This document shows positions 9,001-35,041 of a stretch of DNA of 35,105 nt, piece after piece. A program made the position numbers and the translations under genes. The notes beneath the pieces are model-generated. The model did not search any database, had not been told where the DNA came from, and saw only the letters and a program-made list of their open reading frames with translations. Each line of letters starts with the position of its first letter. Position 1 is the stretch's first letter. The stretch is from the NCBI GenBank assembly GCA_009602725.1, contig WELB01000035.1:339894-374998 (forward strand). Direction: 5' to 3'. This DNA is from Spirogloea muscicola (lineage: Eukaryota; Streptophyta; Zygnematophyceae; Spirogloeales; Spirogloeaceae).

Positions 9001-11653
9001 CCTGTGTTTCTGGTTGTCCAGGCTTTCCAAATTGCCTTCGAACAGCACTGTAGCGTACTGCTATTGTAACTGCCTTGGATAGAGAGAGGCCAGCCTCAGA
9101 CACTAAGTTTGCCCTGACAAGGACCTGGAGAGTTTGTCCCAAACAATCTATTAGAAAACAAGCCACTCTTAGTCTTCATATTGCGGTGTAGCTTCCACCC
9201 GCTGGGTGGCTGCAAGTGTTTGAAATAAGGCCAATCAATTCATCCAATCCAGTAACCCAGCATTCAGCTGGTGGGGATACTGACCATCGCACCATATGCA
9301 AGCTTAGAGTGGCCCTCTCTTGAGAACTTGCCTTCCGGAGAGACACGTGCATACCTGCGCATGACACATTCCAGCACTTTCAGACTGCAGACTGCAACGA
9401 CATCTGCATATAGATACTTGTCTCTTGTTGAGTTGTACAGAGCTACATCGTCACCCCAGAAAGGAACACAGTCTCACATGTCCCATGAACCACCAATGTT
9501 GATGAAAGAGACCTGAGAAGCTCCTCACCGCATCAGCATATTTTCCCTCGGAATTCGAACACGATCAAGCCGAAGGAAGCCATTGTCCATGGTATTATAA
9601 CCAAGCTTTGGTCCCATGTCACCAACAGTGACACCAGGTAGGGGCTCGTGGCTTGTGAGGCTCCGAAGCGGCACTATGAAGGCTGTAGCCATTACCAAGA
9701 TGAACATCAGCCCATCTCCTCAAATAATCTCAACTTCATGCAAACATTACTGCAGAGTGATCAAGTCATGTCAACCATTAAATCACCTCTCAGTCTGTCA
9801 AGCACGTATCCAGACCACATCTCCACACCATATAGACAAGTAAATTAATACTTCATCGGAGCTCAAATTTTTGGCAACTGCTTTGTCCAACGGAAGCATG
9901 CACGTACCATGTATACCACAACCTTTATTGTCAAGCATGAGACGAGCATAGACTAGGGCATGAGTGGATGCTTTCCCGAGACCACCTGGCCACCACTGCA
10001 TCCAGACTCAAAAGAGAGCTCATCAAAACCAGCTGTACTCTCCATGTTATGACCCTTCTCAGGTCGTCTGTCTATTCAATCTTTGTGGCACATCGCATCA
10101 AATCTGTCTGCTGATTGCGAGAACGATGAGATACCAAGCTAAGAAGACTTCATCTAGCTCAATCGTGGGTCGACAGTGAACCTTTGTGGAAGTAAGAGTG
10201 GGACTGTGAATCACAAACTCCTCTGCACTTTGGTCATACTCGGCTACCGTCTCCAAGCCCTGAGAAGGTCACCAAATAGAGGTCAAAAGAGATGCTGCAG
10301 GCTGCTATGCAGATGATTACCATCCAAGAGATGTTGAAACTTGTCTGACTGTTTGACTATCTGCTATTATACTGTTGACTCGTTGCTGCATGATATGCAA
10401 CCCACTGCTACCAAGCAGGGTAAATGAGCAGTGAGAATCACAATGTCCTCATAAGATGTCAGTAAGGGTGGAGACCTCATCCTATCAGTCAGAATACTAG
10501 CCTTGTGCTCAGAACAAGCTCGTCTCATGGGCAGCTTTAGAAGGAGCTCTGACCTGAACATTGGAGCCATGACCCATCTCCGTCTGTGCATAGCAACCTA
10601 TGATAGAGTATGTCTGAGCTAACGGCAACCACTTTTTCTTCTGCTCCTCCGTACCTTGGCCATCAATTGCTGGCACGAACATGCCCTGCAATAGTCAGAG
10701 TCAAAATTAGACAGGAAGCTAGCCTGTCTAAGAGACCTCAGCCATATGAGTATCCCTGCATAGGGTGTAAAGTTGCATACTGCGGATTGCGAAGATGAGT
10801 ACCACACTAGTACCAGGAATATCAGAACTCAGTGGCAGCTCTTTATAGATTCTGTACTTTAACCGGCCAACATTGCGGAACACAGTATCATGCCCCCAAG
10901 AACGTTGCATGTGTCCAAGGCTTGCAGTTGGTTACATTACAGAAGGATGTGTCAAGCTGTGGAAATCGCAAGAGCAGAACAGAAACAGTGTCCGATGCAT
11001 GGAGTTCTTCCACAGGAAGGGGAGCAGCAAAGGTATTCGCAAGATTGGCCATAGGCTCACCAGATTGAGGCCTATGGGAAGGACTTCGTCAATAAGACGC
11101 CACATAGAGTAAAATTCCTCGTCTGCACCACCTGAACCTGCATACTACTCACAGCACAGTGGCGACTTAAAGATCAACATGAACACGTTGTCCAGATTAT
11201 TATGATTTCTATAACGATCACTTTAAGTTGCATCAGCTGAGACAAGCAATGTCATGCTGCAAAAGTAGCCAAACTCGTATCGTCCCGGAGATTATTTTGC
11301 GGATCATCTGATATCCTTCCTGGACTGATGATGACGAGGATATATGCTGTGGACGCTGTGGTGTGAAACAGACACAGACAAGCACTTGCACATGCCCTTC
11401 TACCTCTCAGCTGCAGCTCGTCCCTGAGCTGTATGAGCCGCCTGGACTTCTCAAGTGCTCGTCTAACCATGTCAACCCGCGAGAGATACGCACGGTCGTC
11501 CTTGCGAAACACCGGGTCTTGGGCTACCAACGCGGAGAAGCGCTCCAGCTTCTCGACGGCTTCGGGGCCGCCGAGAAGAGCGTGCGTCATGGCGCGCACG
11601 TCAAAGGTAGCCCTCCTGCGCTCGGCTGCCAGCGGGCTAACATCCTCGCCCAT
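6058..11653 (-). CDS. ACX1: Peroxisomal acyl-CoA oxidase, ACX1-like
   Basis: Oxidises acyl-CoA to trans-2-enoyl-CoA with FAD, passing electrons to O2 to give H2O2; first step of peroxisomal beta-oxidation. Exons from the start: 11653-11404, 11122-11061, 10685-10554, 10259-10182, 9995-9908, 9682-9529, 9354-9285, 9124-9002, 8806-8609, 8415-8360, 8163-8088, 7867-7747, 7603-7493, 7385-7316, 7152-7050, 6849-6769, 6592-6535, 6278-6058. Phases agree, giving 683 residues (plant ACX1 about 664). Diagnostic stretches: [12 protein letters not shown] at the N terminus, [29 protein letters not shown] (FAD/substrate site), [72 protein letters not shown] (usually GGHGY) and TFEGDNTVL, which carries the catalytic glutamate. 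The C terminus is AKL, a PTS1 peroxisomal signal. The start is the only ATG at the family start. The intron after 9002 needs a GC donor. A few residues may be missing between exons 2 and 3. Confidence 0.93.
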
Positions 11654-12206
11654 GGTCGGGCAGCAGGAATCTGCAGAGGCAGCTACGCTCCAACCCGCCC
11701 CGGTCCGCAGGCCTCTCAAGCCAAAGAGGCGCCGCCGTCTGGCCAGCGGCAAGGCCAGCGCCAAGGCTCCTGCGGCGGCGGAGGCGGCGGTGGCGGCGGC
11801 GGCAGCAGAGAGGCAGCGAGGAGCCGTCTCGAGCTGCAGCGATCAGACTAGTGGAGCTCCCTAGAGCTCTTATTTCCCGTTAAGATAACGGCGGGGGCCC
11901 CAAGGTGACGGGGGGCGAGGCACTCAAACCCCCGTCAGAAGGTCCCCGACAACTCTCCCGCGACTTAGCGGCGACGCTGTCGTCGCCGTCAAGGCCCCGC
12001 GCCGCCTGCGCGGGTCGGGGGGCGCCGGCGGCGGCGGCAGGGCGGCGCAGGGCTTGCGCTTCATCGGCGAGGGGATTGGTAACATGATTGATGTGATTGA
12101 GGGGAGGGAGGATACCGGAGAAAGGGAGGGGGGTTAGACGGAGGCGCGACGTGCCCAGCCGATAAGGGACCCCGCTCCCCTCAACCCCATCACTTCCCCA
12201 CATCCC

Positions 12207-14865: not shown

Positions 14866-15150
14866 AGCGCTTCATGAGAGGTCCATGGCCCGTGCGCTGC
14901 ACCTTCGTGCCGGGAGAGCCCTCGCTGCTGCTTCTGGCTCTGTCCAGGGGACCCACTTCCAGGACCCTAGCCTCTCTGATTTGCGGCTGCTTAGCAGGGG
15001 TTACCGAGTAATTTGTAGCTGCTTTCTTTCTTTGTGTGCTTTGGTTTCTTAGCGCTTCCTCTGGCTTCCTCTGGCCCCCTTCTCGTTCTTTGTTCATTCT
15101 TTTTTGGGCTGGCTTGTCCAGCCCCTATCCTCAATGGGCGAGCCCTTTCT
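14866..15150 (+). mobile_element. 5'-truncated 3' end of a probable non-LTR retrotransposon, copy 1
   Basis: One frame from about 14884 encodes the shared C-terminal motif (MARALHLRAGRALAAAS, then DPSLSDLRLLSRGY) and a stop near 15010. A non-coding tail follows (TTTGTAGCTGCTTTCTTTCT, CTTCTCGTTCTTTGTTCATTC, TTTTTTGGGCTGG...CCAGCCCC). The same C terminus plus tail recurs at 20380-20690 and 25590-25870. A conserved end with variable 5' truncation is typical of LINEs. The motif resembles the last part of LINE ORF2 after the reverse transcriptase, a family assignment from pattern only. Confidence 0.55.
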
Positions 15151-15375
15151 TCATGAGTTGGCATTCATCAGCGTGCCAGGTGCGCACCAAGCGAGGTGAT
15201 TGCCTCCTGTGGTGGTGCTCCGGCTCTGCAGACGGGCCTGTCGTCTATTCATGTACTCACGCGTGGGTACTTGTTCCCACTTCAGCTGTGCTTTTGCTCT
15301 GGTTATTAAGCCCCCCTTCGTCCGGAGCTTCGTTTTCTCTACGTTTGCACTGCTTTTGCTAGGAAACACTCAGCA

Positions 15376-15617
15376 ACCCATGTTGAGCAGCCGCAGGTCG
15401 GAGAAACTGGTCTCCGGGTTAGCGGGTCCCCTGTCCAGGGCCAGAGGCTGCAGCTAACCGCGACCGGCTCGCAGATGCAGTGTGCGTGCCATTGACCGCT
15501 GCAGCGAGACTGACAGGCGCATGCGAAATACCTGCGTGGGAATGCGTGTGTATTAAGAGATGGGGAGGCCATGTGTGGCCAAGTACAAAGGTTAGCACAT
15601 TGACAAATGTACGTCAC
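15376..15617 (-). mobile_element. Inverted 3' end of the same retrotransposon family, copy 2
   Basis: Read on the minus strand, 15535-15376 gives RMRLSVSLQRSMARTLHLRAG and, after a frame break, SFSDLRLLNMGC and a stop. It matches the plus-strand copies but points towards copy 1, so the two form a head-to-head inverted pair about 220 bases apart. The adjoining 81 bases at 15537-15617 recur at 26197-26277. Confidence 0.55.
15537..15617. repeat. 81-base dispersed repeat, copy a
   Basis: Near-identical to 26197-26277; both begin GGAATGCGTGTGTATTAAGAG and end ACATTGACAAATGTACGTCA, with only a few differences. In both places the minus strand reads from this segment into the retrotransposon C-terminal motif, so it is probably an upstream part of that element. 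Confidence 0.8.
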
Positions 15618-15719
15618 CTGCTGACCCGCTCAGTAACCACGAGTCAGCACATAGAAGTCGCTAACTGATGCCCGGATACCGGACGGCAATCGACAAGCTC
15701 TTGAGCTACCTAAGGCTAA

Positions 15720-15775
15720 GGCTCGACCAGCTTTCTGATGCAACGCATGCGCGGGAGAGCCCGCAGGCTGTGGGA
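15720..15775 (-). mobile_element. Short fragment of the retrotransposon C-terminal region, copy 3
   Basis: The minus strand encodes AHALHQKAGRALA in one frame, matching ANALHQKAGRALV at 26061-26022. Only about 50 bases are recognisable. Confidence 0.4.
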
Positions 15776-15939
15776 AAGCAGCCCAAAACCAGTGGACAAA
15801 GGTACTAAATTGAACAGCGCAGGATTATCCACACAAGCCGGAGTCGGGGCGTGCCCAGGCCCCCCGTGCGTCGACCAGGCCGCGCTGGCCCGCACCTCGC
15901 GGCCAGCCGCGCTGCGACGCCGGGGCCGCCAATGAGCAG

Positions 15940-17350
15940 CAACCGCGCTCTGGTCGCCAACCCGCGCCTTGCGGACCCCTGCCGCCCCTGAGACTGGCTT
16001 GTGCACATTGCGGGGGAAGTGCTCACAATGCCCACACGTACCCACCTTGCTCCTCCTCTTACTCCATCTTACGCCTCTCCTCCTCTTACTCCATCTCACG
16101 CAATATAGCAGCGAGCTCGGGGCGCCCCCTCCGCCACTCCTTGCCCGTGCCTGCTTCAGCTGCTAGAGCCGCAACTTGAGTAACCACCCCTGGAGTTTAT
16201 CACCACTCGGCTCGTGGACGATCACGCCCAATTTGTGCCAAGGATGGAGCCAGCCATTGAGCGCCGTGAGGAAAGCCGCCGCCAGCGACTACGAGGACTG
16301 CGTGAGATTGCTCGGCAGGAGTTGGACGAAGTCGCAAGAGCGGCAGCCGCAGTTGACTTGCCTGAGAATAATGCAGGACGCCGGCCGCTGCCTTCATGCG
16401 CAGCTTGCCAGAGTACGAGACGCGCATGCCAGGGGTTAGATTGTTTATACGCCATCCCTAGCTTGCAACCCTCTGATTGTACCAAGCGTGCACATTGGGA
16501 GATGGTGCAAGAGATTTTTGGAGCCAACTACGCAACCAAGCACTTGAGAAATGCAAGTGCAGTCGAGATCAATGGAATCGTCCACGACATGCGCGAAGCT
16601 TGCATGAAGAGGTCCTTCAGATTCCTTTCACTGCTTGACAACCCACAATTTGAACGGAGGTGCTTTCATTGTCAGATGCATCACCTTATTTCATGTATAA
16701 TTCTTTGGGTTGACTTGTCCGTGACCGTGTTGAGTTTCTTGTGATCTTGCCAAAACGCTACTGATTTACATGCCAGAGCCCTTTGCCAAATTTTTGCAGC
16801 TTGATATATGAGGCTCGACGCAGATTGGTGGAACCCCGTTGAGGGTATGACTGGCATCACTTGTGCACGAGGTACAATTTTCGATCTCTTCGAGATTACA
16901 ACTCTTACTTGCACGCAGTTGCTCTAGTCCAATGTTGTTGCAAGTCAGCAATTGCTAAGTGGCAAGGCAACCAGAGGTGCAGGTGTCACTGTAAGCAAGT
17001 CATGGTTTTAAGCACGTCATGACATCGGCAAATACCTTGATCATGTTGCAGAGGCTTGAAAGTATTATGCGAACACCCGGATATTTCAGCAACAGCCAGC
17101 CAAGGAATATTACGTCGTGGAACGATCTAGAGCACCCACACACTTCATTCGCTCCCTTTGCGTGGTGCAGAAGGCTCCAAGCATCACCAAGCCCCTTGGA
17201 CAATACTATCTGAAAGATGATAATCACAATTGCATTCCACTTCAGTCGCAGAGGCTAACTAGTAGCTCTCATATCCACATATACCTCATGGTGGTGGTAT
17301 TGTGGAGCTTTATTGGTCATCATACTCACAGGGCTCAGATGAGCAGTTAA
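15940..17350 (+). other. Coding-like stretch of unknown identity, possibly a spliced gene or gene relic
   Basis: Two segments look more protein-like than the surrounding repeats. The first, a 176-codon frame at 16214-16744, has a basic N-terminal helix, a cysteine cluster (CAACQSTRRACQGLDC) and a block with HWEMVQEIFGANYATKHL and FRFLSLLDNPQFERRCF. The second, about 17090-17275, starts after a good acceptor (ATATTTCAG) and reads EYYVVERSRAPTHFIRSL and then KPLGQYYLKDDN. Its spacing weakly recalls the Mediator subunit MED6 domain, but key residues are missing and no upstream MED6 exon is visible. The segments cannot be joined into one model with confidence. Alternatives are an unrelated gene, a transposon ORF or a pseudogene. 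Confidence 0.3.
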
Positions 17351-17519
17351 ATGGCTTGACACCCTGGTGCTGATCGACTTCACACACAATTAATGTCATC
17401 ACCACGCATAGGTGGCTTAGTCAAGGACGAACATCGTGAGACCGATGATCTTGATGAGTTAAGATCACTATTCAACCTTTGTACTCCCTATTACCCCAAT
17501 CCAACCCCATTCCACATGC

Positions 17520-17960
17520 ATTAGATAGAGAGAAGTATGCAGGCACTCAAGCACTCACGCATGCAATCAAGTACAGAGGCATGCACGCACACACACATGC
17601 ACGCGTGCGCATCACCCACGCACTCCCGCACGCCCGCACTATCACAAGAACGCCCACACGCACACACAGACATGCTTGCATGCATACGCATATACGCTCG
17701 CTCACGCACACAATTAAAGACGCAAGCGCGGGCACAGGAAAGATGCACACGCATCCATCATGTCAAAAATATATGCGCAGGAGGCACACGAGCAGGCAAG
17801 GCACACAGATCAATTTCGCAGATACGGGCGAGCGTACTGATGCACAAGCACGTGCACAGGCGGGCCAACACAGGCATACAAGCACACTCGCACATCCAGA
17901 CGTGTTCGTATAGCACATCCACAAAAGTGGTTGAATTATACAGATGCACACACACGTGAC
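17520..17960. repeat. CA/GC-rich low-complexity block with alternating purine-pyrimidine runs
   Basis: Dense irregular repeats of ACAC, GCAC, GCGCAC and ACGC across about 440 bases, for example CACACACACATGCACGCG near 17588. Open frames on both strands through it are rich in His, Thr, Arg, Cys and Val and are products of composition. Such alternating tracts can adopt Z-DNA. Confidence 0.75.
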
Positions 17961-18789
17961 CAGCACATGTGCAGATATTTCTTGAGGACGGTGAAAGAAG
18001 CGTAGCACCAGAGCGCCAGTGCTCTTGCGAGGAAGCTCCCTCACTTGTGCACAGCAAGTGGTCTGCCTTGACATAGGCCTTGGGAAAGCCCCAGATTATA
18101 GTCATGCCAGTGAAATGGGCACTGCTGAGTGATGTGTGCTGCGTTCTCCACACGAAGCACTCCATTGAAGGCACAGAAGCAAATGCAAACCATTAAAAGC
18201 ATGCAAGCTCTTCTGCCCGCAGAGCCATAGAGCTGCCGCTTTTGAGCACCTCTACTCGTAGCATGACAGAGCGAGGCTTTGTCACACGCACAAGCCCGTC
18301 GTAAGGTACCATACAGCAGCACTGCACGGATGTGCCCCAAGGTGTTACATGCATGTGCATGCTGTGACATTGGTAAGGACACACTTAACCTTCATGCGGG
18401 CGCCATTTTATTGGACCAATAGCAAGAGATTGCTCAGCCGCTGCCGCTGCGTAGCAGCCCGGCTTCAACGGGGCCAGGTCGCTCGGTCAGGTTTGCCAAA
18501 TGCGCCTCACCATTTGCTCCCGGCGTTGCCAAGAATTTGCCGTGCATCTGCAAGCAGGCCGTGCCTTGGCTGCCGCTTCTGGAAGTCTGCGTGGCAACTC
18601 CTTTTCCTGCTGCTGAGTACTCTGACTTGCCTCCTGACTATAATCTGTTGAGCACTCATGCACCATAAGCACTCGGGACGTTGTGCGCATGGAATGAAGG
18701 GGAGTGCGCATGAGAGAATGGGAGGCCTTGTGGACCTTGTCAATTCCTTGCGCTGGCCTTCACAGCCATCGCCCCCCTTGGAGGAGCTT
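17961..18789. other. Non-genic stretch between the low-complexity block and the F-box duplicate
   Basis: No gene is supported. On the plus strand near 18427-18495 a short frame (RCRCVAARLQRGQVARSGL) resembles the reverse-transcriptase C-terminal region found elsewhere here and may be an older fragment. A minus-strand frame at 18174-17758 shows no known motif. Confidence 0.35.
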
Positions 18790-20008
18790 CACCAACATGG
18801 TGTTCACAATGTCTGTTGCTCAACTCTTCTTCAGAAGGAATCAAGCAGCAACTGGAACCTGATCTACACCTTCACTAAGAACATTCAAAAGAAAGGTTGA
18901 GCTAAACAAGGCTTGTACTTACCAAAGTCATAAGCTAGCCACTGAGTTGATCGCCCATTTCTAACCACATAGAGCCACTCCTCCTCCTTCGCATGTCTCT
19001 TTGGGGCACTGTCGCGTTCGCATCACGTTCTCAAAGTTCCATTGCACGCCCACATCTTCCATCAACCATTTGAAGACCCCACACATACTAGCACACCTTT
19101 TGCGATGTACAGGAGTATGCCATGAGCTCAGAGTCATACACGTATATCTCGTCACTCTGAAGGAGCTTCCTCCACGAGTGGCAAACGCCTCGAGCTTCTC
19201 TGCACAGAGTGGCGAGGTACGTAAGCTGACACATTCACCCGCTCCTGTGAACCAATTTGGAGCCCTTCCAAATGCCAACCGCTGCGAATGGCCAGCCCAA
19301 AAATAAAGCGAGAGATCTCTACTGGCTTCTTGCCTATGCCACAATTGATCACCGCAATCAGCTCGAAGAGCGTTGAAGTATGAGCCTGGTGAATTACACC
19401 ATCAAGCCCCCAAGACACTGCAAGAGCAAGCTGTACTTCCACATACGTCCTCCACCTCAGTCGCCGGTCTGTGATGGCAGCATATATCTTGGGAACAGCC
19501 GGGCCCCGTGTGGAGCTCGCAACAGCGGCGTTGGTCAAGTTGGATGCCAGAGCTGGACTGCCGAAGGGGCTGGAGGAGTAAAAGTACGACGAGGCGTGCT
19601 GAGGTGGGCAAGTAGGGCACCCAGAGTGGAGGGTTCTGGAAGCGCGGGCGCTCACAGGTAGTGGCCTCTGGGGACGAGCGCCAGGCAGTGCACGGAGAGG
19701 TCGCGAGGGAGGCCCGGGATGAGCTTCCGCGGCCGCCTCTTGCTCTTCGCCGCCGCGCTGCGTCTTGACGGCGGGGGGCGGCGGCGGCGCTGAGCTGCGG
19801 CTGCGCCCGCGCCATGCGGGGCGCCGGACTCGGCCTCCGCTAGCCTGCAACTGGGTGGGAGTGTGTAACTGTCGGAGAGCCTGTGTGGCCAAGGTCGAAG
19901 GCACGCACAATTGCAGCTGGAGCGGGTTACCAGTTGGCCACCGCCAGACAAGTGCCAGCCCACAGCTGTCCATCCTTTTCTGGGCTGGCTTTGCTAGCCC
20001 CTCTTTGC
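18790..20008 (-). pseudogene. Duplicated 5' half of the F-box/kelch gene, degraded
   Basis: This segment is a direct copy of about 22804-23990. The minus strand still encodes the F-box core (LIPGLPRDLSVHCLALVPRGHYL region ending 19656), then GVCHSWRKLLQSDEIYV from 19199, and HAKEEEWLYVV...STQWLAYDFG ending near 18906, with the same splice sites as the other copy. It stops there: kelch exons 4 onward are absent. The conserved ATG (19815) is out of frame with the F-box, so the N terminus is broken. Intron 1 carries about 100 extra bases (about 19263-19370) containing the CCAGCCC repeat module, absent from the other copy. A functional truncated protein is unlikely. Confidence 0.7.
19263..19370. 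mobile_element. Insertion/deletion segment carrying the repeat module in intron 1 of the F-box duplicate
   Basis: The duplicates align on both sides (GAACCAATTTGGAG... and AAGAGCGTTGA) but only this copy has the intervening bases, which contain GAATGGCCAGCCCAAAAATAAAG. The other copy has only GAGATCTAAG here. The same CCAGCCCAAAAATAAAG string ends the copy near 5475-5491. Either insertion here or deletion with a small footprint there explains it. Confidence 0.5.
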
Positions 20009-20175
20009 TAGCCTCTCTGATTTGCGGCTGCTTAGCAGGGGTTCCTGAGTGATTTGTAGCTGCTTTCTTTCTTTGTGTGCTTTGTTTTCTTAGCGCTACC
20101 TCTGGCCCCCTTCTCGTACTCTGTTCATTCTTTCTTGGGCTGGCTTTTCCAGCCCTTATCCTCCGTGGGCGAGCC
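19998..20175 (+). mobile_element. Retrotransposon 3' tail, copy 4 (very short)
   Basis: Begins abruptly with TAGCCTCTCTGATTTGCGG, encoding only the last residues before the stop, and continues with the same tail as copy 1 (GTAGCTGCTTTCTTTCT, CTTCTCGTACTCTGTTCATTC, TTGGGCTGGCTTTTCCAGCCC). Confidence 0.6.
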
Positions 20176-20219
20176 CTTCTTCTTTCTCTATGGGCGAGCC
20201 ATTTCTTCTTCTCTTATGA

Positions 20220-20252
20220 GCCCCCCCCCCCCNTGCCCCCCCCCCCCCCCCT
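20220..20252. repeat. Poly-C tract with an undetermined base
   Basis: Two long C runs flank an n and TG at 20232-20234. Length and sequence here are unreliable and a frame across it cannot be trusted. Confidence 0.9.
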
Positions 20253-20379
20253 CGCACTTGCTTCATTCCCTATTACTGGGCTGGCCAATCACAGCCACCG
20301 CCCTCTACTGGAAGAGACACACCATCGCCCGTCGCTTCCATGGGGAGCCTGTAGCCTTCCCTGCAGCAGGGTCGCTGGC

Positions 20380-20690
20380 GCAATTGTATCGCATGCGCCT
20401 GGCCGTCTCGCTGCAGCGGTCGATGGCCCGTGCACTGCACCTTCGTGCCGGCCGGGCTCTTGCTGCTGCCTCTGGCTCTGGCCAGGGGACCCATTTTCAG
20501 GACCCTAGCCTCTCTGATTTGTGGCTGCTTAGCAGAGGTTACTGAGTGACTTGCAGCTGCTTTCTTTCTTTGTGTGCTTTGTTTTCTTAGCGCTTCCTCT
20601 GGCCCCCCCCCTTCTCGTAATTTGTTCATTCTTTTTTGGGCTGGCTTTTCCAGCCCCTATCCTCAATGGGCGAGCCCCCTCTCTCTACCG
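20380..20690 (+). mobile_element. Retrotransposon 3' end with intact C-terminal frame, copy 5
   Basis: Best-preserved copy. A frame reads YRMRLAVSLQRSMARALH, then RAGRALAAASGSGQG, HFQDPSLSDLWLLSRGY and stop (20545), followed by the full tail with GGGCTGGCTTTTCCAGCCCC. The sequence just upstream (20278-20310) is another GGGCTGG module, so the element joins directly to an earlier repeat. Confidence 0.6.
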
Positions 20691-20724
20691 GAAGAGACTT
20701 CCTTCCATCTTGAGAATAGCGCTT

Positions 20725-21056
20725 CCGAATTTCTCCCCCGTTCTGACATAGCATCTTCAGGCCCCTTCGCAGCTGTTTAGGCACTCCGGCTCCTTCAGAC
20801 CTTGTCCATTCCCTTTGGGCTGGCCTTTCCCAGCCACCAGTCAATCTGGCCGCGCTTTCTTCTTTTTTAGGCCCCTCCGCCATTGGGCCCCTTCGGACCT
20901 TGGTCAATTCTTTTCGGGCTGGCTTTTCGCAGCCCCATTGGGAGAGCCACGTCTTCCAGTTTGATAGCAATGGCAGTCTTCTTCCTCTCATAGCTACCCG
21001 AAGCCAAGTGTCTCTGACATGCGGCTGCTCAACAAAGGATATTGAGCACCCAGAGG
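20725..21056 (+). repeat. Second-subfamily repeat tails and C-terminal remnant
   Basis: Holds TCTGACATAGCATCTTCAGG followed by two GGGCTGG...CAGCC modules (20817 and 20916), then GTCTCTGACATGCGGCTGCT and a stop (21007-21044), which matches the retrotransposon C-terminal end. The TGACATAGCATCTTCAGG string recurs at 24258, 25315 and 25748, defining a tail subfamily. Confidence 0.5.
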
Positions 21057-21120
21057 CCACTTGAGTCGGCTGTGTGCATTACTGCTTATCTGGCCCTTCA
21101 GACTTTGTTCATTCCTTCTT

Positions 21121-21201
21121 CTGGGCCGCCCAACCACAGCCATCGCCCTCAAGCAAGAGACTCTTCCAGTAGAGGGCGATAGCTGTGAGTGGCCGGCCCA
21201 G
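21121..21201. mobile_element. Fold-back (MITE-like) element
   Basis: Left arm 21121-21150 and right arm 21172-21201 are inverted copies of about 30 bases with few mismatches (CTGGGCC...CATCGCCCTC against GAGGGCGATAG...GGCCCAG), with a 21-base loop. Inner parts of the arms recur at 5450-5481, 20278-20315 and 24084-24120. No coding capacity. Confidence 0.65.
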
Positions 21202-21709
21202 ATAACAGTTTAACAGATAACAGTGTTTTCTCCCTTTGAACCTTGTCATGCTTTCTGGGCTGGCTTTTCACAGCCCTCGCCCTCTTCAGAGAAGCACATT
21301 TTCCTTGGACAGAGTTTCATCTTTCTGTTGGCTGGCTCTTTACAATCCATGCCCCCTCCTAGAAGTGCCTGTTCTTTCGTTCACAGCCCATGCACCGTTC
21401 AAGAAAGTGGCTCTCCCATGCAAGGAAGCTGCTTAATTGAAAAAGCTAGTGCGTAAATTTGGGGCTACGTATAACGATGGAAGGAGGCTCTTCCACAGCA
21501 TGCGGTGGCTTCCGAAGACTAGCCTAAAGTCGTGGACGAAGTCTTGAGGACGCCCCAATGCGAAAGCACCAAGCACTCATCACTCCTCACAAGACTTCAG
21601 CGAGCAATGCAGCGGGCAATGCCGCCAGAGCTTAGACATGGAACGAAAAGCAACAAGCAGGAATCTCATCGTACTCATTAGCAGCAGTGAAGCTAGGATA
21701 GTCAACAGG
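21202..21709. other. Non-genic stretch downstream of the F-box/kelch gene
   Basis: Contains another GGGCTGG...CACAGCC module at 21257-21276. The remainder shows no gene and should include the 3' UTR of the minus-strand F-box/kelch gene. Confidence 0.5.
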
Positions 21710-23704
21710 TCATTTTGGCACATTCAATAATGTCTCTTCTGTACCCTGGAATGGGCACCAGTGCTTGCCATCGCGCTTGCCATTGTCTCTATCCCATTTG
21801 TGCAGGTGCGCACGAACCTCATCAACAAAGTTGCCGTCTGAACGTATGATGGACCCACCAACTAAGTGTACATCACCTTGAATATGGATTAGTCTGGCCG
21901 TACCGAAAAGCTGGAGACCTCCTTGCCACCCACCTCGCCATGACTCGTGCACAAGGCCTCTTTCACTGATCTGAGATAGGTGTGGAGGACACACTGCCTG
22001 TTGACAATGTAGAGAGTGTCACTTGCACTTGCTGACGCACCACTCTCAACAAGGAAAGCCAGTCCGTGCCGCCACTCTTCCGCCTCTGGATTGTAAACTG
22101 AGCCCCAAGTCGCGTTGTCTTGCTTCATCAAATACTTGATGCAACGTCCACAATCTCCCATTGAGGCAGAAGGCGTCCCACACAAGCAAGGTATCCAGAA
22201 GAAGTGGAAGTGAGCGCCACGTACTCTCCTCATCGGCACAGTCCAAGCTTTCCACTGAACGTGAAATAGGTTCGGTACCATGACCACCACCCACAAAAAT
22301 GTCATTCTTCAAGACCACTCGGAAGAAATCTGCTCTTCCCGCTTGCATTGGAGCACCTAGCGCCCAATGATTGGTAGTCACATCGTAGATCCAGACCTGC
22401 GCTCAACTCATCCAGCTCAATTTACTGGCATGTACCCATAACAAGATTCAGCCAAGCGGAGACATGAAGAAGCAGTATCGTGCAGCGCTAGTGCAAATGA
22501 TGTCGAAGAAGCACAACCTCAACGCCAGTGATAGTGATGTTATATGCTAGAGATGGTCATACCTCATCTGTAGGTAGATCTATGTCAACCTCCAATTCCT
22601 CATGTAGAGAATATGATAGACCACCCATCACATACAATTTCCTCTTCACGACTGCTGCCCGGAAATTGTAAAATCTGTTGCAAATTGTTGGAAGAGGCGG
22701 CAATCGAGACCATCTCCTAAGAGCTACACATGGATCCACCATAAGAAACATCACAGTTAAGCTTCATAAGCAGCCGATCAGTCTCTCCAGCAGCAACCAG
22801 TATCACCAACACGGTGTCTGTTGCTCGATTCTTCTTCAGAAAGATTCAGGCAGGACCTGGACTCTAATCTACACCTTCACTAAGAACATTCAAAAGAAAG
22901 GTGGAGCTAAACAAGGCTTGTGCTTACCAAAGTCATAAGCTAGCCACTGAGTGGAATGCTCCTCACCAACCACATAGAGCCACTCCTCCTTCGCATGTGT
23001 CTCCCGGGCACTGTCGCGTTCGCATCACGTTCTCAAAGTTCCATTGCACGCCACATCTTTCATCAAACATTTGAAGACCCCACACATACTAGCACACCTT
23101 CTGCGATGTACGGGAGCATGCCATGAGCTCAGAGGCATACACGTATATCTCGTCACTCTGAAGGAGCTCCCGCCATGAGCGGCAAACACCTCGAGCTTCT
23201 CTGCTCCATAGATGCACAGAGCGGCATTAGAAGTAAGCTGACACATAGACCCGCTCCTGTGAACCAATCTGGAGATCTAAGAGCGTTGATGTATGGAGCC
23301 CAATGAGGGACACCATCGAGCATCCAAGACACTGAGAAAGCAAGATCTACTCTCAGTCATGTGTCCTCCACATCAGTCGCCGGTGCGTGATGGGTAGCAC
23401 ATATCTTGGGCGACACCTGGCCCCCGTGTGCAGCTTGCGGCAGCGGTGTCGGTCAAGTTGAATGCCAGAGCTGGACGGCCGAAGGGGCTGGAGGATTAGA
23501 GTACGACGGGGCGTCCTGAGGTGGCAAGTAGGACGCCCAAAGTCGAGGGCTCTGGAAGCGCAGGCGCTCACAGGTAGTGGCCTCTGGGGACGCGCGCCAG
23601 GCAGGCCACGGCGATGTCGCGAGGGAGGCCCGGGATGAGCGCTGCGGCCGCCTCTTGCTCCTTATCGCTGCGCTGCCTCTTGGCGGCGGCGGCGGCGACG
23701 CTGA

Positions 23705-23736
<32 letters not shown>

Positions 23737-23744
23737 TGATCCAT
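21710..23744 (-). CDS. F-box/kelch-repeat protein, with an apparent frame break
   Basis: Likely SCF ubiquitin-ligase substrate receptor: the F-box would bind a SKP1-type adaptor and the kelch propeller a target (family knowledge). Exons read 23744-23572, 23200-23141, 23010-22928, 22723-22563, then from 22396 down. Phases agree for the first four. Exon 1 begins MDQ, has an Arg/Ala-rich tract from a CGG repeat, then the F-box LIPGLPRDIAVACLARVP, continuing as GVCRSWRELLQSDEIYV. HAKEEWLYVV follows, as in plant F-box/kelch proteins. Kelch blades: RRWSRLPPLP...KRKLYVMGG, HWALGAPM...NDIFVGGG, STWRSLPLL...LNGRLWTL, TWGSVYNPEAEEW and HIQGDVHLVGG, ending LLNVPK. Between LNGRLWTL and TWGSVYNP (about 22185-22125) the frame shifts by one base with no plausible intron. 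The return to the original frame near 21950 could be an intron. It is either a recent pseudogene or carries a sequencing error. Confidence 0.7.
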
Positions 23745-23990
23745 GCGGGGCGCCGCGCTCGGCACTCCGCTAGCCTGCAACTGGGTGGGAGTGCGTCAAC
23801 TGACGGCGAGCCTGTGTGGCCAAGATCGAAGAAGAAAGGCTCCCTCCATTGGGGACAGGGGATCAAAAGATCAACGGCACGCACAACTGAAGACTGCAGC
23901 TGGAGCGGGTTGCCAGTTGGCCACCGCCAGACAAGGCCAGCCCACAGCTGTCCGTTCTTTTCTGGGCTGGCTTTGCCAGCCCCTCTTCTC
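22804..23990. repeat. Segmental direct duplication, copy b
   Basis: Aligns with 18790-20008 over about 1.2 kb in the same orientation, about 4 kb apart. It covers the 5' three exons, introns and upstream region of the F-box gene. It ends in both copies at the GGGCTGGCTTTGCYAGCCCC repeat module, suggesting the repeat took part in the duplication. Confidence 0.8.
23690..23735. repeat. (CGG)n repeat within F-box exon 1
   Basis: GGC/CGG units encode the Arg tract following MDQ and a nearby Ala run on the minus strand. The corresponding region in the duplicate has a different length, which accounts for its out-of-frame ATG. Confidence 0.8.
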
Positions 23991-24245
23991 TATGGGCGAG
24001 CCTTTCTCTTTTTTCATGGGCGAGCCATTACTTTTCATCTTATCAGCTTCCCCCCCTTAACACTTGCTTCATTCCCTGTTACTGGGCTGGCCAATCACAG
24101 CCATCGCTATCCACTGGAAGGAATTCCTTCTTTATTTAGAATAGCAAATGATACTTAAATGCCTTAAATGCTGTCATCGAGCCGTCGAGTGAGCAGTCGA
24201 GGTCTTTACTCAAGAAGACGTAGAAAACCGTACTTCCAAATTCAT

Positions 24246-24660
24246 TCCCCCGTACTGACATAGCATCTTCAGCCTCTTCGTCGCTGCTTAGCGCTTTAGG
24301 CCCCTCCGTCATTTGGCCCCTTCGAATCTTTGTCAATTCTTTTCGAGCTGGCTATTCGCGGACTACCGGAGGGGAACCGCTCCATTCCACTGGCCATCGA
24401 TGTGCACGGGGCTTTCGGATCTCAGTGTTCGACCTGTTGAGCCGGCTTGCGCGCCATGCTGTGTCCCGCAGGCCGGGCAAGCAGGCCGACTTCTATGCCG
24501 CTCGCTCGCTAGCGCAGGTCTTTTGCAAGTGCCTGTCCATATCCCTTCCAGCGGTCCATGGCCCACGCCTTGCATCTGCGTGCTGGTCGTGCTCTAGCTG
24601 CAGCCTCTCGTTTTCGTCTAGGGGATGGCTTTCCGGCGGCTAAATTTGTGACTTGCGGCT
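24246..24660 (+). mobile_element. Retrotransposon tail joined to the longest C-terminal coding fragment, copy 6
   Basis: A second-subfamily tail (24246-24345) runs directly into coding sequence. One frame starts AIDVHGAFGSQ (about 24388), and after a one-base loss continues VFDLLSRLARHAV, KQADFYAARSLAQVF and SISL; a second shift restores MAHALHLRAGRALAAAS. The (A/P)-IDVHGxxG-then-helix pattern followed by a LQR-containing helix is what many LINE ORF2 proteins show downstream of the reverse transcriptase. It is the main evidence for the LINE assignment. The coding frame is broken at least twice. Confidence 0.55.
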
Positions 24661-24763
24661 CCCACGTAGAGAGTAATAAGTCATTCACATACATGGAAAG
24701 GAAACAGCTCTTTCCAGAGTAAGGCAATGGCTGTGAGAGGCTAAAAGAAGTACAAGGTCTAAG

Positions 24764-24842
24764 GGGCTGGCTTTTCACAGCCCTTGCTCCCATCGAAGAA
24801 GTGGCACTCTCAATGAGGGCAAGGGCTGCGAAAAGCCAGCCC
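24764..24842. mobile_element. Fold-back element with 24-base arms
   Basis: 24764-24787 and 24819-24842 are inverted repeats with a single mismatch (GGGCTGGCTTTTCACAGCCC against GGGCTGCGAAAAGCCAGCCC), with a 31-base loop. It matches the GGGCTGGCTTTTCGCAGCCC module of the retrotransposon tails. Confidence 0.7.
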
Positions 24843-25262
24843 AAAAAGAATCAACAAAGGTTTGGAGGGGCCTACAAGCGGGAGAGCCGCTTCATCTAAG
24901 GGGCCGGAAGGAACCAAATCACATAGCTATGCAAAAGACTATAGTGGTTGGTAGTTGGGTAAGCCCGAGTCAGCATTCGCTTCCCTTCCGGTCTATGTGC
25001 ACCTCGTGCCTACTCTTTCGTCACCATGTTGGCTTTTTTGGGCTAGCCTTTGACAGACATCGCCCCTTGGAAGAGCTTCTCTCTCTTCAGCCGCTTTTTG
25101 TGTTTCTTTTCTGATTCTGGAAAACTTCCAGCAGTAAGCCTGTCTTCCCGTCTCGCCCTTGCTTCCTTAGTCCCTCTCAGCTTGGGGCGTTGCTTGGTAT
25201 AGCCCCATTCTTTGCCTGTCCTTTGCTTGTGCACGAACAGGATAGGATCGACTTGGCCTCCC

Positions 25263-25440
25263 TTAACTAGAGGCTACTGAGAGTCCCTACTGAGTGATCC
25301 ATCCTCCCCCTGTTCTGACACAGCATCTTCAGGCCCCTTTGTAGCTGCAAAATGCTTTTAGGCCCCTCCGAACCTTTGTCAATTCTTTTCGGGCTGGCTT
25401 TTCGCAGCCTTTGCCCCCGTTGGGAGTGCCACTTTCTTTC
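25263..25440 (+). repeat. Second-subfamily retrotransposon tail, copy 7
   Basis: Nearly repeats 25700-25870: both contain ACTGAGTGATCCATCCTCCC, CATCTTCAGGCCCCTTTGTA and GTCAATTCTTTTCGGGCTGG, and end in CAGCC..TTGCCCCC. The two lie in tandem about 430 bases apart. Confidence 0.7.
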
Positions 25441-25589
25441 CTTGCTGATGTCTTAGTCCTTAGCACTCCGGCTCCTTCAGACATTGTCCATTTCTTTGGG
25501 CTGGCCTCTCCCAGCCACCAGTCAATCTGGCCGCGCTTGCTTCCTTGAATGTCATGCGCACCGTGCGCCTTCATCTTTCCTGTACACTG

Positions 25590-25870
25590 GCTGGCCTTTC
25601 CATGGCCCACGCTCTGCATCTGCGAGCTGGCCGTGCTCTCGCTGCGGCCTCTGGCTCTCGTCAGGGGGATGGTTATCTGGCAGCTAGTCTGTCGGACCTG
25701 AGGCCTCTCACTCGTGATTACTGAGTGATCCATCCTCCCCCTGTTTAGACATAGCATCTTCAGGCCCCTTTGTAGCTGCTACGTGATTTCGGCCCATCCG
25801 AACCTTCGTCAATTCTTTTCGGGCTGGTTTTTCGCAGCCCTTGCCCCCATTTGGAGAGCCATTTCTTCTT
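25590..25870 (+). mobile_element. Retrotransposon 3' end, copy 8
   Basis: One frame encodes MAHALHLRAGRALAAASG, then YLAASLSDLRPLTRDY and a stop (25724), followed by a second-subfamily tail with GGGCTGGTTTTTCGCAGCCC. It confirms that the two tail subfamilies follow the same C-terminal coding end. Confidence 0.6.
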
Positions 25871-25984
25871 CTTTCACGGCCATTGGCATTGCTTTGAAAG
25901 ATCTTTTCTTCCCCTTCTCTGGAAACAACAGCGCTCCACATTGACTGGTGGCTGTAAGAGTGTCCAGCCGAAAGAAATGGACAA

Positions 25985-26277
25985 GGTGTAGAGGAGCCGG
26001 ATGAAGCCCTTCTGCCAACAACTAGAGCCCGCCCAGCTTTCTGGTGCAAAGCATTAGCCTGAGCACGCTGCAAACAGGCCGAAACTCCTCGTCGTAAGAA
26101 CGACAGACATGCAGCTGGCAAGCCCATCTCAGCCGGAACACATTTACATGTCGTGTGTAGCCTAGATTGGCTATGTTTTGAAGGAGAGTAAGGAAGGAAT
26201 GCGTGTGTATTAAGAGATGGAGGGCCATGTGTGGCCAAGTACAAAGGCAAGCACATTGACAAATGTACGTCATCAGG
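25985..26277 (-). mobile_element. Inverted retrotransposon fragment, copy 9
   Basis: Reading the minus strand from 26277: the 81-base repeat, about 130 bases of unassigned sequence, then CLQRAQANALHQKAGRALV and a shifted tail including a CCAGCCGAAAGAAATGGAC module at 25961-25980. The order matches the inverted copy at 15376-15617. Confidence 0.5.
26197..26277. repeat. 81-base dispersed repeat, copy b
   Basis: Partner of 15537-15617, in the same orientation. Confidence 0.8.
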
Positions 26278-31176: not shown

Positions 31177-34100
31177 TCAGTCTACTTCACGAGTACTCCT
31201 GACATGAGGCGGCATTTTGGCAACCATCACCGCCTTCGCTTTACCAATGTGATGGGAGACCTTCTGATGCAAGTCAAAAAACATAACCTTCAACTGCTGT
31301 ACCCAATTGTCGACCTTCGCCTCATGCTTCTCATAGAGCACAGGAAGAATGAACGCTCCAAACAAGCCTGCTCCAGATAAGCCAAAGTTAAGCAAACTTG
31401 CTGGAGTCTGATCTCTCAAGTCTGGACCGTCAGGGGCCGTCGTTACTGGTGTGACGTATATCAGCAATCTATGGTTTGGGGCCTGCTGCAGCAACAGGCG
31501 CACGCAGTAGCTGTCTGCTAAGGCAACAGCTAACTTCCACTCTAGCAAAGTCCCCAAGCAGTCTCGATCTACTCATGATTGCCTACCTTGCCAGTCAGGT
31601 GCACTCACCTAGTCCTACAAGGGTTCGGACATGAAAATACAAGGAGACAAGCTTCACCACGTACAGGAATGACATTAACTGCAACAGCAAGATTTGCATT
31701 TAAGACGGGAAAGTAAACAACTCCAAGACTTGCCTCAGAGCAAGACAGTGATGCTTTGACAATTTGCTTGCCAGAGAAACAATACAAGTTGCATTAGATA
31801 GAGAAACCCACCTCAAGGAATAAGGTCAAGTCCTTCTCGACAGCAACACGGTGCCCCAGAACAAGGATGTGATCATTCCAGAAAGCACGCAACTCCAGAG
31901 CAACCCTTGAGATTGCTTCCTCAGAAAGTTGCCAGCTCTCTGAAACGTCAGGGAGGCTGTCTAATAACCTGCTTGAGGGCCACGTAGGCAAGCTGTTAGA
32001 TAGCAGATAGCCCACTACTGTCTGCACAAGCTCTGCAGTGAATTCTGCAGTCAGTGCAGATCCACCACTGCGAGTACATCCGGCAGGTTGGAATAACCCC
32101 AAAAATTGCCGCAAACAAGATCAAGAAATAGAAAGTACCTCACGTCAGCCAATGGACGGATGCGGCTGTAGGTAAAGAGGGATAGGGAAATGTAAAGGGC
32201 GGCCGTGGCGACCAAGGACACCAAGGTGAAGTTGGAGGCAAAGAGGACACCGAACATAGCCAACAAGGCCAGGAAAGTTGACAAGGACATCAAGGTATCC
32301 CGCCAAAGCAGAGTATCGGCAACTGCAGAATAGCAGACAAGTAATGGATGTGGCCTTAGATAAGGTTGGCACAATTTAACAACTTGGCACCAACTTTTTG
32401 AGAGATCCCATGGACACCTCACTTTGTTCCGACCACAAGTCAGGATGCTGTGTCAGAGAGTCACAGCCATGAAATCACTGCATAGAGATTAAAGCATAAA
32501 GATAGAACCAAGATGGTGACGCGGCTAGGGAAGAAATGGTCAGATGACCTCTAAGACTTTTCAATAGCAGACTAAACATCAACAGTGCTTCCGCATGAAA
32601 CAGTGGACTGTGCATACCTTTACCGCTCCCCAATGCTCTGTGCACCTTGCTCGTGACGCTCGATTGAGCAGGGGCGTCGCTCCGGAGGTGCTGGAATGCG
32701 GCAATTGTTCGTCTGATGCCCTCCTCCAGCGGCACAGGAGGCGCGTAACCGAGCAGCCGGGCAGCGCGGCCGCAGTTGAAGCAGCGGGACAGTGTCGCCA
32801 AGCGGACGCGCGATGGAATGAAGTCGGACTTGGGCAGGTGGAACGCCTCCGCCAGGAACTCGTTCAGTTGCGCGATCGGCAGGATCAACTGCGCCGGCAG
32901 CTTGCCCACTGGCCTGCACGCCCAAGTGACCAGGGAGATGAGAGCACCGCTTCTGAGACTAGAGTAAGCAGCCAGATGTTAGGCTGCGAAGATGGACAGA
33001 ATTATCTGCCACATGGCGGGCTACCAGACTATAAAGTATCAGAGACTTTCAGTCAGGCCTTACAACACTTGGGTTACCAGATTAACATCAGATATCAGCT
33101 GTGGGCCAGCTCAACTGCTTTTTCATGCTCTTGGGGCTTGATCAGATGATCAGAAAGATCCCAAAAAAAGATGGTCCTCCTACACTCACACAGACTTTCA
33201 TGACCACGTTGCAGAGTGCTAGAGGCTCCGAGGCCAGCACAGGGAGGGGCATCGCAGTCACGTACCCGCTGTACCCCAGGGGGATGATCAGATCATACAG
33301 AAAGTCCCAGAACTTGCGGGGCTCGCCGTTGGTGATGAAGTATGCCTGCACAGACGATTGCAGGGGCGGAGCATGAGGGATTCACACACCAATATCACCA
33401 AATTAACACCAAAAGTATGACCACTGCTGTGACTGCAACAGCTACTGCAGCCAATGATGAGCAGCTACTCCCGCCCTGCGTCGCTTAGCCCATCCTTGTC
33501 CTCTTTGCAGTGTGATTAAGATAAGTCACAGCTTGGTGGAGCTAACAGTATCTGTTGCTGGTTGATAAGCAGCCTCCTAACAGAGTGAGGTCATGTGCTT
33601 ATGACAATAGCTGCTTCTGTTGCAGCCATGCAGACGGAGCTGCCGGTCACAAGGAGAACGACTTGAGCAGACCTTGCCAGCGGCGACGCCCTCGTCGGCG
33701 CTTCTCTGCCCGGGCGCCAGCACCGCCGCAGCACACAAGTGGGCGTGCGCCACATTCTCGACATACGTGTAGTCGGCAATGTTCTCGCCGCCGCCGATGA
33801 TGAACTTCATCTTGCCGCCACGGGCATTCCGCACTGTGGTGGGCAGCAGGACGGAGTCGCCAGGCCCGAAGACGCCGCTGGGCCGCAGCGCGGCGGTGGC
33901 CAGCGCCGGCCCGTTGGCCACCAGCACCAGCGCCTCCGCCTGCGCCTTGGTGTCGCAGTATGCGTCCATCGGCTGGCAGGGACGACGACAGCCCACATCG
34001 ACGACAATGTCGTCAAGGAGGCTGACCCGCAGGAAGCGTCGGTAGCTGCATGGCGACGGCCGGCGGCGGTCACCTTGTCGGGGACCGGGAGGCCCTCGTC

Positions 34101-35041
34101 GCCATCGCGGATCTCGTGGGTGCCGTCGAACACGATGCTCGCCGTGCTGGTGTACACGAGCTTCCGCACGCCCGCGCGCCGGCACGCGTCGATCACGTTC
34201 CGCGTACCTGGCCGTGGCAGGACGACGGGGCGCCCGGGGGCTCCTCTGCGACATCTCGTCAGCGCCCGCCTCAGCCGCCGACGTGGGGAGGCTTGCAAAG
34301 CGGCTGCCATGGCGAGCGAGCGGGCTTCGCTCACCGTTGACATTGACGTCGTACTGGTCCTGGAAGCGGCCGCTGTGCGGGTGGAGGCCCGCGGTGTGGA
34401 ACACGACGTCGGCGCCCTCCACGGCTGGCACACGCCGCCTCTATGCCCAAATCAGTGGCGGCAAGTGCGGAGAAATGGATTGCTTCAGGAATCAAACCAG
34501 CATCATGGGTTTGGAAGGCTAAGGGTTAGAGTCGAAGCTAAACCACTGACGTGGCGCGGCGCTCACCGCGGAGGACCTGGGCGGGCTGCGTGACGTCGCC
34601 CTGGAGGTAGGCGGCGCGGCCGGAGAGCAGCGCGGCGGCGAGCGGGCCGCCGGCCTCGTCGGGCGCCAGCACCAGGGGCCCCGGCTCGAGGTCCAGGATG
34701 CGCACGCTGCGCCAGCCGCCGGCCTCCAGCAGGCGCGCCACGAGGTGCCGCGCCACGAAGCCCCGCCCGCCGGTCACCAGACACACCTGGGGATCAAAGC
34801 CAGCTCACATGAGTGCCACTGCCAGAACACATGTCGGGCTGAAGGGGTAAGCTTCAATGCAGCAGCCGCAAGCAGGTGGGCTGTGGCCAGTGGTGTGTAC
34901 GGATGCGTAGGCATGAGCCAGGCGGAAGGAAGTGATGTGTATGGGGAGAGATAGAGAGAGAGCGAGTGAGAGAGCTAGCTCCCAGAGAAGGCAAGGCCAG
35001 CGAGAGAAGCGGCAAGCGGGCGTGCTCGCCTGCTCGTCCAT
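31177..35041 (-). CDS. Sterol-4-alpha-carboxylate 3-dehydrogenase (decarboxylating) fused to a reticulon domain
   Basis: Removes the C-4 carboxyl group and oxidises the 3-hydroxyl during sterol C-4 demethylation, using NAD(P), at the ER membrane. Exons: 35041-35030, 34786-34567, 34424-34335, 34207-34074, 33972-33673, 33345-33266, 32913-32618, 32322-32144, 32021-31812, 31678-31661, 31407-31177, giving about 589 residues (Arabidopsis 3BETAHSD/D proteins about 560). The N terminus has the Rossmann motif VTGGRGFVARHLV. EGADVVFHTAG, NVIDACRRAGVRKLVYTST and VFDGTHEI follow, then YCDTKAQAEALV (catalytic Tyr-x-x-x-Lys), RPSGVFGPGD, YTYVENVAHAHLCA and ITNGEPRKFWDF. LLGYAPPVPLEEGIRRTI ends the enzyme part. 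The reticulon part has two long hydrophobic hairpins (from TLLWRDTLMSLSTFLALL; from SLLNFGLSGAGLFGAFILP) with LSEEAISRVALELRAFWND between and LYEKHEAKVD after. It presumably anchors the enzyme in curved ER. The first coding exon (MDEQ) with a GC donor, and exons 9-10, are least certain. Confidence 0.88.
34945..34975. repeat. GA-rich tract in intron 1 of the sterol dehydrogenase gene
   Basis: GAGAGATAGAGAGAGAGCG and following GA units; CT-rich on the coding strand. Confidence 0.7.

Follow-up and report, generated by a model that had tools for sequence, protein, structure and literature searches.

The LINE tail cluster of the Spirogloea muscicola window

We analyzed a 35,105-nucleotide stretch of the genome of the streptophyte alga Spirogloea muscicola (assembly GCA_009602725.1, 153.1 Mb in 471 contigs; bases 339894–374998 of contig 35, WELB01000035.1; hereafter “the window”), in which positions 14866–26277 hold a dense array of modules sharing a GGGCTG..CAGCCC hairpin. 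With high confidence, we interpret this cluster as the 3′ ends of one group of long interspersed nuclear elements (LINEs) encoding a reverse transcriptase (RT) and, by motif, a C-terminal restriction-like endonuclease (RLE), present mostly as short stubs that nest in one another. The basis for this is the presence of long open reading frames (ORFs) in the same genome, a sharp 3′ end common to copies that break off at many 5′ points, duplications at the flanks, and tails lying inside tails in both orientations.

The hairpin stands near the 3′ end of every tail subfamily, of which at least five could be told apart (A to E, labels coined in this analysis), while an earlier note on this stretch (hereafter “the original prediction”) had named two. 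Within the window, it is matched nine times at ≤3 mismatches (shuffled mean 0.01), and a looser pattern yields 20 modules within 14866–26277; genome-wide, there are 2,499 exact copies, against none for a reversed-pattern control. Tails terminate in ...CCACTTC or ...CCCTTTCTTC, the type-B 3′ end being sharp and common to its copies (...GCCACTTC). A tail query gave 40 scored candidates of 92–100% identity with a common 3′ end, the query’s own locus included (3,531 rough candidates), and eight of these, once fetched, had the same 3′ end and differing 5′ extents. A consensus RNA fold of 16 aligned tails was uninformative because the stem is nearly invariant and the alignment placed types A and E one base out of register. 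The window gave nothing at Rfam gathering scores, and tail DNA had no match in a phage collection. In 20 fixed-position stretches, we counted 23 modules in 29,993 readable bases (0.77 per kb; three stretches consist of N throughout, some few calls are doubtful, and the reversed control gave 0), compared to 1.65 per kb beside hairpins in the first 60 hairpin stretches. Taken at face value, the fixed-position stretches extrapolate to a rough genome-wide figure in the region of 100,000 modules.

Searching the window by tblastn with the genome’s own LINE protein (E up to 1) returned nine C-terminal pieces. Five are clear (E < 0.01), at 20315–20542, 14876–15004, 15534–15376 (minus strand), 18464–18604, and 25518–25721; four are weak, at 15752–15633 and 26094–25993 (both minus strand), 20995–21042, and 24345–24584. 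The “at least eight” such fragments of the original prediction are thus reached only if weak pieces are counted.

The cluster opens with a 5′-truncated A-type copy recognized by tblastn (14879–15148, plus strand, as are the following features unless stated), with the coding end SMARALHLRAGRALA...SLSDLRLLSRGY-stop and a tail ending GGGCGAGCCCTTT; it is flanked by the 9-bp repeat CTTCATGAG (14870–14878 and 15149–15157), of which CTTC may belong to the tail end. LINE C-terminal relics follow at 15376–15534 (minus strand, E 4e-10) and 18464–18604 (E 9e-8), the latter succeeded by a hairpin module at 18750. An A-type tail at 20060–20178 (hairpin at 20137, repeat families D1 and D3, similarity by eye from about 20010) precedes the 5′ part of a D-type tail module (20278–20317, hairpin at 20278), which resembles the module at 24084 (family D18) and hosts an A-type LINE copy at 20318–20682. 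This copy comprises 76 C-terminal codons (93% identity by tblastn) plus tail, and its flanks, CTCTACTGGAAGAGA at 20303–20317 and CTCTACCGGAAGAGA at 20683–20697, are identical at 14 of 15 positions. Next come a C-type module (20781–20868, family D10, 94% identical to 25494–25546), a B-type module (20882–20958, exact hairpin at 20916), a LINE end of type D (PSVSDMRLLNKGY-stop followed by the tail, 20995–21160, including the weak tblastn piece at 20995–21042) that forms the left arm of a fold-back at 21121, an opposed D-type tail on the minus strand that forms its right arm (21161–21202), and a module with an exact hairpin (21257–21276). At 23964–24121, repeat comparison and hairpin scan show an E-type tail (hairpin 23964) and, after it, a D-type module (24084); the duplicated unit contains a like module pair at 19982 and 20278. 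Downstream, a B-type host tail lies in two pieces (24764–24795 and 24881–24893, together spanning 24764–24893) that match the B tail when joined, and a second B-type tail is inserted the opposite way between them (24796–24878, minus strand, reverse complement ...GGGCTGGCTTTTCGCAGCCCTTGCCCTCATTGAGAGTGCCACTTCTT). The array ends with a B-type module (25357–25434, family D5, hairpin scan), a C-type module (25494–25546, family D10), and a B-type LINE end (25599–25867, tblastn, hairpin at 25821) whose C-terminus ...SLSDLRPLTRDY-stop runs into its tail.

Stand-alone hairpins as truncated LINE ends

Beyond the window, we read 100 exact hairpins in 91 stretches of contigs 1, 2, and 3, taken first in contig order and hence non-random (2,399 exact copies lie outside this sample). 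The stand-alone hairpins are the LINE’s own 3′ ends, cut at many 5′ points. Of the 100, 63 have the type-B end, either ...CCACTTC itself or a variant differing by one base. For 23 of these, similarity extends ≥95 nt upstream of the hairpin, with a LINE coding signal in 21, while for the other 40 it stops within 95 nt, down to 1–8 nt.

Flank repeats of ≥6 nt accompany 16 of these 40 copies, against a mean of 7.4 when right flanks were shuffled, and none of 5,000 shuffles reached 16. At 7 nt the count is 10 (mean 4.5, reached in 12 of 5,000 shuffles) and at 8 nt it is six (mean 1.8, reached in 23 of 5,000). Leaving out the eight rows with any upstream LINE signal gives 16 of 32 (mean 7.2, 0 of 5,000 shuffles). 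Good target-site duplications are found at fetched genomic loci L083 (GAAGCTGAGT) and L050 (TATCAGCCT), the L050 copy beginning at the hairpin itself. A 121-nt tail also sits in the 5′ untranslated region (UTR) of a long LINE copy, L027, flanked by AATTCAAG, and L026 presents the same site empty.

We further looked for a shared upstream head in 65 hairpin copies from 60 stretches (the 35 later hairpins, in 31 stretches, fall outside this test). A LINE C-terminal motif lies within about 120 nt upstream in 17 of these 65. Similarity to another copy continues beyond 150 nt upstream in 18, of which 10 have LINE coding sequence by tblastn and three more the C-terminal motif; the remainder, as far as examined, are other LINE tails. 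No shared non-LINE head, of the kind expected for a short interspersed nuclear element (SINE), was seen among the 65. The comparison of LINE tails with stand-alone hairpins that the original prediction had proposed as a check yields a truncation series, with duplications above the shuffled control.

Fold-backs and nested insertions

Two inverted pairs in the window, 21121–21201 and 24764–24842, had been described as perfect fold-backs. Both are genuine but imperfect: the first (21120–21202) has 31-nt arms with 27 matches around a 21-nt centre, the second 33-nt arms with 29 matches around a 13-nt centre. Fold-back 24764–24842 is one B tail inserted head-on in another. Omitting the insert at 24796–24878 restores 42 of 45 B-tail bases, compared to 33 of 45 with the insert kept, and the 13-base right piece of the host matches at 12 positions, a score reached at only three of 35,092 window positions. 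Fold-back 21121–21201 sits behind a LINE coding end, within a longer repeated stretch, and no empty site was found for it.

A genome search returned eight matches spanning wholly or largely both arms of the 21121 fold-back besides itself, and four for that at 24764; 20 fetched loci were compared with the window. In L089–L094, i.e., six of the eight two-arm relatives, the match to the window extends beyond the left arm to cover the LINE tail and coding end, and in L089, L091, and L092 it also continues past the right arm, as it does over a short piece in L094. L096 has a LINE tail upstream in common with the window. L098 and L099 are a single 610-bp duplicate (100% identity), and in L098–L100 the arms continue into further LINE-tail sequence around a centre that differs from the window’s. 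A family of fold-back elements is accordingly not supported: apart from L095, an exception with mainly the arms in common, the genomic relatives prove to be longer stretches of common sequence or pairs of tails whose centres differ.

Nesting extends beyond the window. A split-host scan of the 60 indexed stretches, the 20 fixed-position stretches, and the window gave candidates in 10 loci, some of them weak, and none in the window; the clearest are L062 and L080. By reading, three insertions (L062, L066, and L072) landed in the hairpin loop or on the 3′ side of the stem. Among neighboring modules ≤200 nt apart in the 91 stretches, 52 pairs are tandem, 20 tail-to-tail, and nine head-to-head; the excess of same-way (52) over opposed (29) pairs has p 0.014 against 1:1, for neighbors that are not independent. 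At L058 (second hairpin at offset 799), A- and B-type tails are, by reading, joined end to start with the pair flanked by one repeat, TTCTGATG, a composite that hints at template jumping.

Protein-coding capacity of the LINE

The upstream protein stretch, used as a query, gave 150 scored matches in the genome, many within long open frames. The L027 frame is open over 1403 codons, including flank and the inserted tail at its start. Pfam RVT_1 was detected in three ORFs, L027 (9e-16), and L026 and L014 (1.8e-17, 6.1e-18); in L009 the frame does not reach across the RT region, and RVT_1 was not listed. Against PDB at E up to 1, the RT matched R2 proteins only (best 8.7e-7). A C2H2-like pattern, CQLCQRTFTTRSGRSNHQRTC, lies upstream of the RT.

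Downstream, the residues H282, D323, and D338 (an H, then D-x14-D) are invariant in eight aligned paralogues, one of them just 58% identical, and the Cys/His knuckle residues C253, C255, H268, and C272 are likewise invariant and at the right place. The KX2KY motif, which the accessible part of PMC5678591 gives together with the restriction-like endonuclease motifs of LINEs, reads KELKY in L027 and KEIKY in six others (L009 is not covered). A C-terminal restriction-like endonuclease is thus present to judge by motifs, and we place the element by motif among RLE LINEs without assigning it to a clade. No APE or RNase H family of Pfam was found in the ORFs scanned (P0001, L026, and L014). By reading of the DNA, in one copy only, the end of another LINE relic directly precedes the L027 5′ UTR, so this copy leaves no room for a second endonuclease.

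Extending the tails upstream, as the original prediction had suggested, has thus recovered RVT_1 in three ORFs and an endonuclease recognized by motif. The LINE assignment is borne out by these long ORFs upstream of the same tail, with RVT_1 and restriction-like endonuclease motifs, together with 5′ truncation and flank duplications.

Neighboring genes and other repeats

Kelch-like and F-box-like gene pieces (e.g., LYVMGGLSYSLHEELEVDIDL and VWIYDVTTNHWALGAPM), so named by motif resemblance rather than by a database match, occupy window positions 21700–24000 on the minus strand. This region repeats part of the unit at 18805–20316; the copies lie about 4 kb apart with LINE tails between them. 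Another repeat, GGCCATGTGTGGCCAAGTACAAAGG..AGCACATTGACAAATGTACGTCA, is 96% alike at 15567–15616 and 26223–26272 (family D13). Also on the minus strand are acyl-CoA oxidase exons (8408–8959 and 11255–11842; Pfam ACOX_C_alpha1 and Acyl-CoA_ox_N) and a 3-beta hydroxysteroid dehydrogenase family protein (33580–34440; PF01073, 8.6e-30). Elsewhere in the genome, a second, perhaps young, retroelement was met at L022–L025 and other places; six places tie for the highest RVT_1 score (139.9 bits), in open frames of 1172–1237 codons. The genome also has matches to the chlorophyll a/b-binding family, and one translated exon has light-harvesting (LHC) proteins, which occur in plants and green algae, as its best PDB matches, so that the green-algal setting assumed in the original prediction is plausible.

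Proposed mechanism and alternative explanations

Given these features, we envisage copying by target-primed reverse transcription. The enzyme would nick the target and begin synthesis at the RNA 3′ end, where it would recognize the hairpin region as in other “stringent” LINEs. Reverse transcription would usually stop early, and many new copies would therefore be tail stubs of roughly 45–150 nt. Insertion of one tail into another the opposite way would give fold-backs, and same-way insertion, perhaps along with template jumping, would give tandem hairpins.

Several observations weigh against this account. Of the 40 type-B copies with short upstream similarity, four are not true truncations, leaving 36: in L057, L074, and L079 LINE coding persists beyond the alignment stop, and in L080 the host is split by an A tail. 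A flank repeat of 6 nt is lacking in 24 of the 40, several of the 16 repeats found are plain pyrimidine runs, and the 24764 insertion is flanked by a mere 2-bp repeat (CG at 24794–24795 and 24879–24880). L095 has mainly the arms in common with the window’s fold-back. Type-B 5′ breakpoints are uneven, several lying 34–39 and 49–54 nt above the hairpin, which could also mean defined short RNAs. On the protein side, the knuckle spacing is CX1C-X12-HX3C rather than the published CX2-3C-X7-8-HX4C, and the N-terminal zinc finger is sub-threshold in Pfam (zf-met 0.0097 in L026, zf-C2H2_4 0.11 in L027). Searching PDB with a C-terminal profile recovered no relative (E up to 10), and the AlphaFold models of the endonuclease region were poor (predicted local distance difference test, pLDDT, 38 for the C-terminal 480 residues and 42 for 191 residues) and were not used for fold search.

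The breakpoints gather near CTCTTAGG and TTTGTAGC, often beside pyrimidine-rich left flanks, and such clustering may reflect reverse-transcriptase stops or microhomology joining.

The original prediction had proposed a LINE/fold-back partnership, in which LINE proteins mobilize short, SINE-like fold-back elements that bear a copy of the LINE hairpin. Tail sharing between SINEs and LINEs is known in Chlamydomonas (PMC3747384, in its available text), and the genomic matches that span both arms, L095 among them, can be counted in its favor. However, the stretches shared by L089–L094 run beyond the left arm into the LINE coding end and tail, L098 and L099 count once and share with L100 arms that run into LINE tail around a centre unlike the window’s, the 24764 empty site can be restored within a LINE tail, and no non-LINE head is shared among the 65 copies. 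This partnership is accordingly very improbable; LINE ends suffice to explain the hairpins, and a new fold-back class need not be invoked. Even less credible, to the point that we give it almost no weight, is a DNA-transposon reading, in which the hairpins would be the terminal repeats of a miniature inverted-repeat transposable element (MITE) with its transposase elsewhere: inverted arms do exist, and inverted terminal repeats would resemble them in a short read, but here the arms extend into the LINE 3′ UTR and coding sequence, the flank repeats vary in length and sequence, and a single sharp 3′ end with ragged 5′ ends contradicts a MITE.

A different question is whether tandem hairpins arise mainly in single events, with the RT leaving one LINE RNA and continuing at the 3′ end of a second. 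The R2 RT is capable of template jumping. The title of PMC8857657 likewise names template jumping by a non-long-terminal-repeat reverse transcriptase, and both the joined A and B tails of L058 inside one repeat and the surplus of same-way neighbors fit such jumps. Yet L062 and L080 exemplify tandems that are plainly insertions, showing repeats at the flanks and retaining the two halves of the host. The window copy at 20318–20682 is another clear insertion, and we consider it rather unlikely that jumping is the main source.

Relation to known elements and implications

The truncated-LINE cluster proposed here most resembles RLE-type LINEs (CRE, R2, R4, NeSL, and HERO), with one ORF that encodes an RT, has nuclease motifs of the PD-(D/E)xK-like type including KX2KY, and carries a putative finger-like motif and a putative Cys/His knuckle, and with 5′-truncated copies; it differs in knuckle spacing and in having no single fixed target. 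The R2 clade proper inserts at one site of the 28S ribosomal RNA (rRNA) gene, whereas the exact tails read here are scattered over contigs 1–3 with differing flanks (the rRNA genes themselves were not searched). Zepp and the L1 clade carry an APE endonuclease. Like the present cluster, Zepp and ZeppL of the L1 clade form nested LINE clusters in green algae, but these number about one per chromosome or are centromeric according to the excerpted text of PMC3446292 and PMC8226300, while the tails described here are scattered and derive from a LINE that has RLE motifs. Zepp also ends in poly(A) (PMC3747384, as far as its text was available), unlike the CTTC-type end seen here, and no APE match was obtained in the ORFs scanned here.

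Five RLE clades are listed besides Dualen in the accessible portion of PMC4640811. The Dualen and RandI elements of Chlamydomonas are, from the available parts of PMC3747384 and PMC4640811, green-alga LINEs with an RLE domain, some of which share 3′ ends with SINEs. Dualen combines APE with RLE, whereas no APE family was found in P0001, L026, and L014, and in L027 a LINE relic stands before the 5′ UTR. EhLINE/EhSINE, SINEX/RandI, and other pairs similarly have a conserved 3′ end thought to be recognized by the RT (PMC3747384, available text), but no SINE was found here among the 65 copies, and the short copies are the LINE’s own truncated ends. The original prediction considered its partnership undescribed in green algae; shared SINE/LINE 3′ ends are in print for Chlamydomonas, in other LINE clades (PMC3747384, same extent). 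Among the matches listed, nothing relevant was found in the literature on streptophyte algae, and we do not present a LINE of this kind as new to the green-algal literature. The notable features of the present element are its extreme truncation and tail-in-tail nesting.

More tentatively, and with doubts that outweigh our confidence, the LINE tail may serve both as the mark by which the element is recognized and as a preferred site for new insertions. Insertions in either orientation would be drawn to the hairpin and to the pyrimidine-rich CTTC end, the enzyme would often stop early or jump between tails, and the family would now be a self-seeding short repeat without a SINE. Tail-in-tail insertions (L062, L066, and L072 among them), the density of 1.65 vs 0.77 modules per kb, and the prevalence of tail-to-tail over head-to-head pairs (20 to 9) can be cited for such self-landing, and could also fit plain clustering in repeat-rich DNA. 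If self-landing is true, S. muscicola would harbour a natural R2-like enzyme without a fixed target that spreads tail stubs well under 200 nt, and R2-like enzymes attract interest for DNA insertion tools. With its many short copies flanked by duplications, the genome would allow RNA recognition, early stops, and target choice to be read directly.

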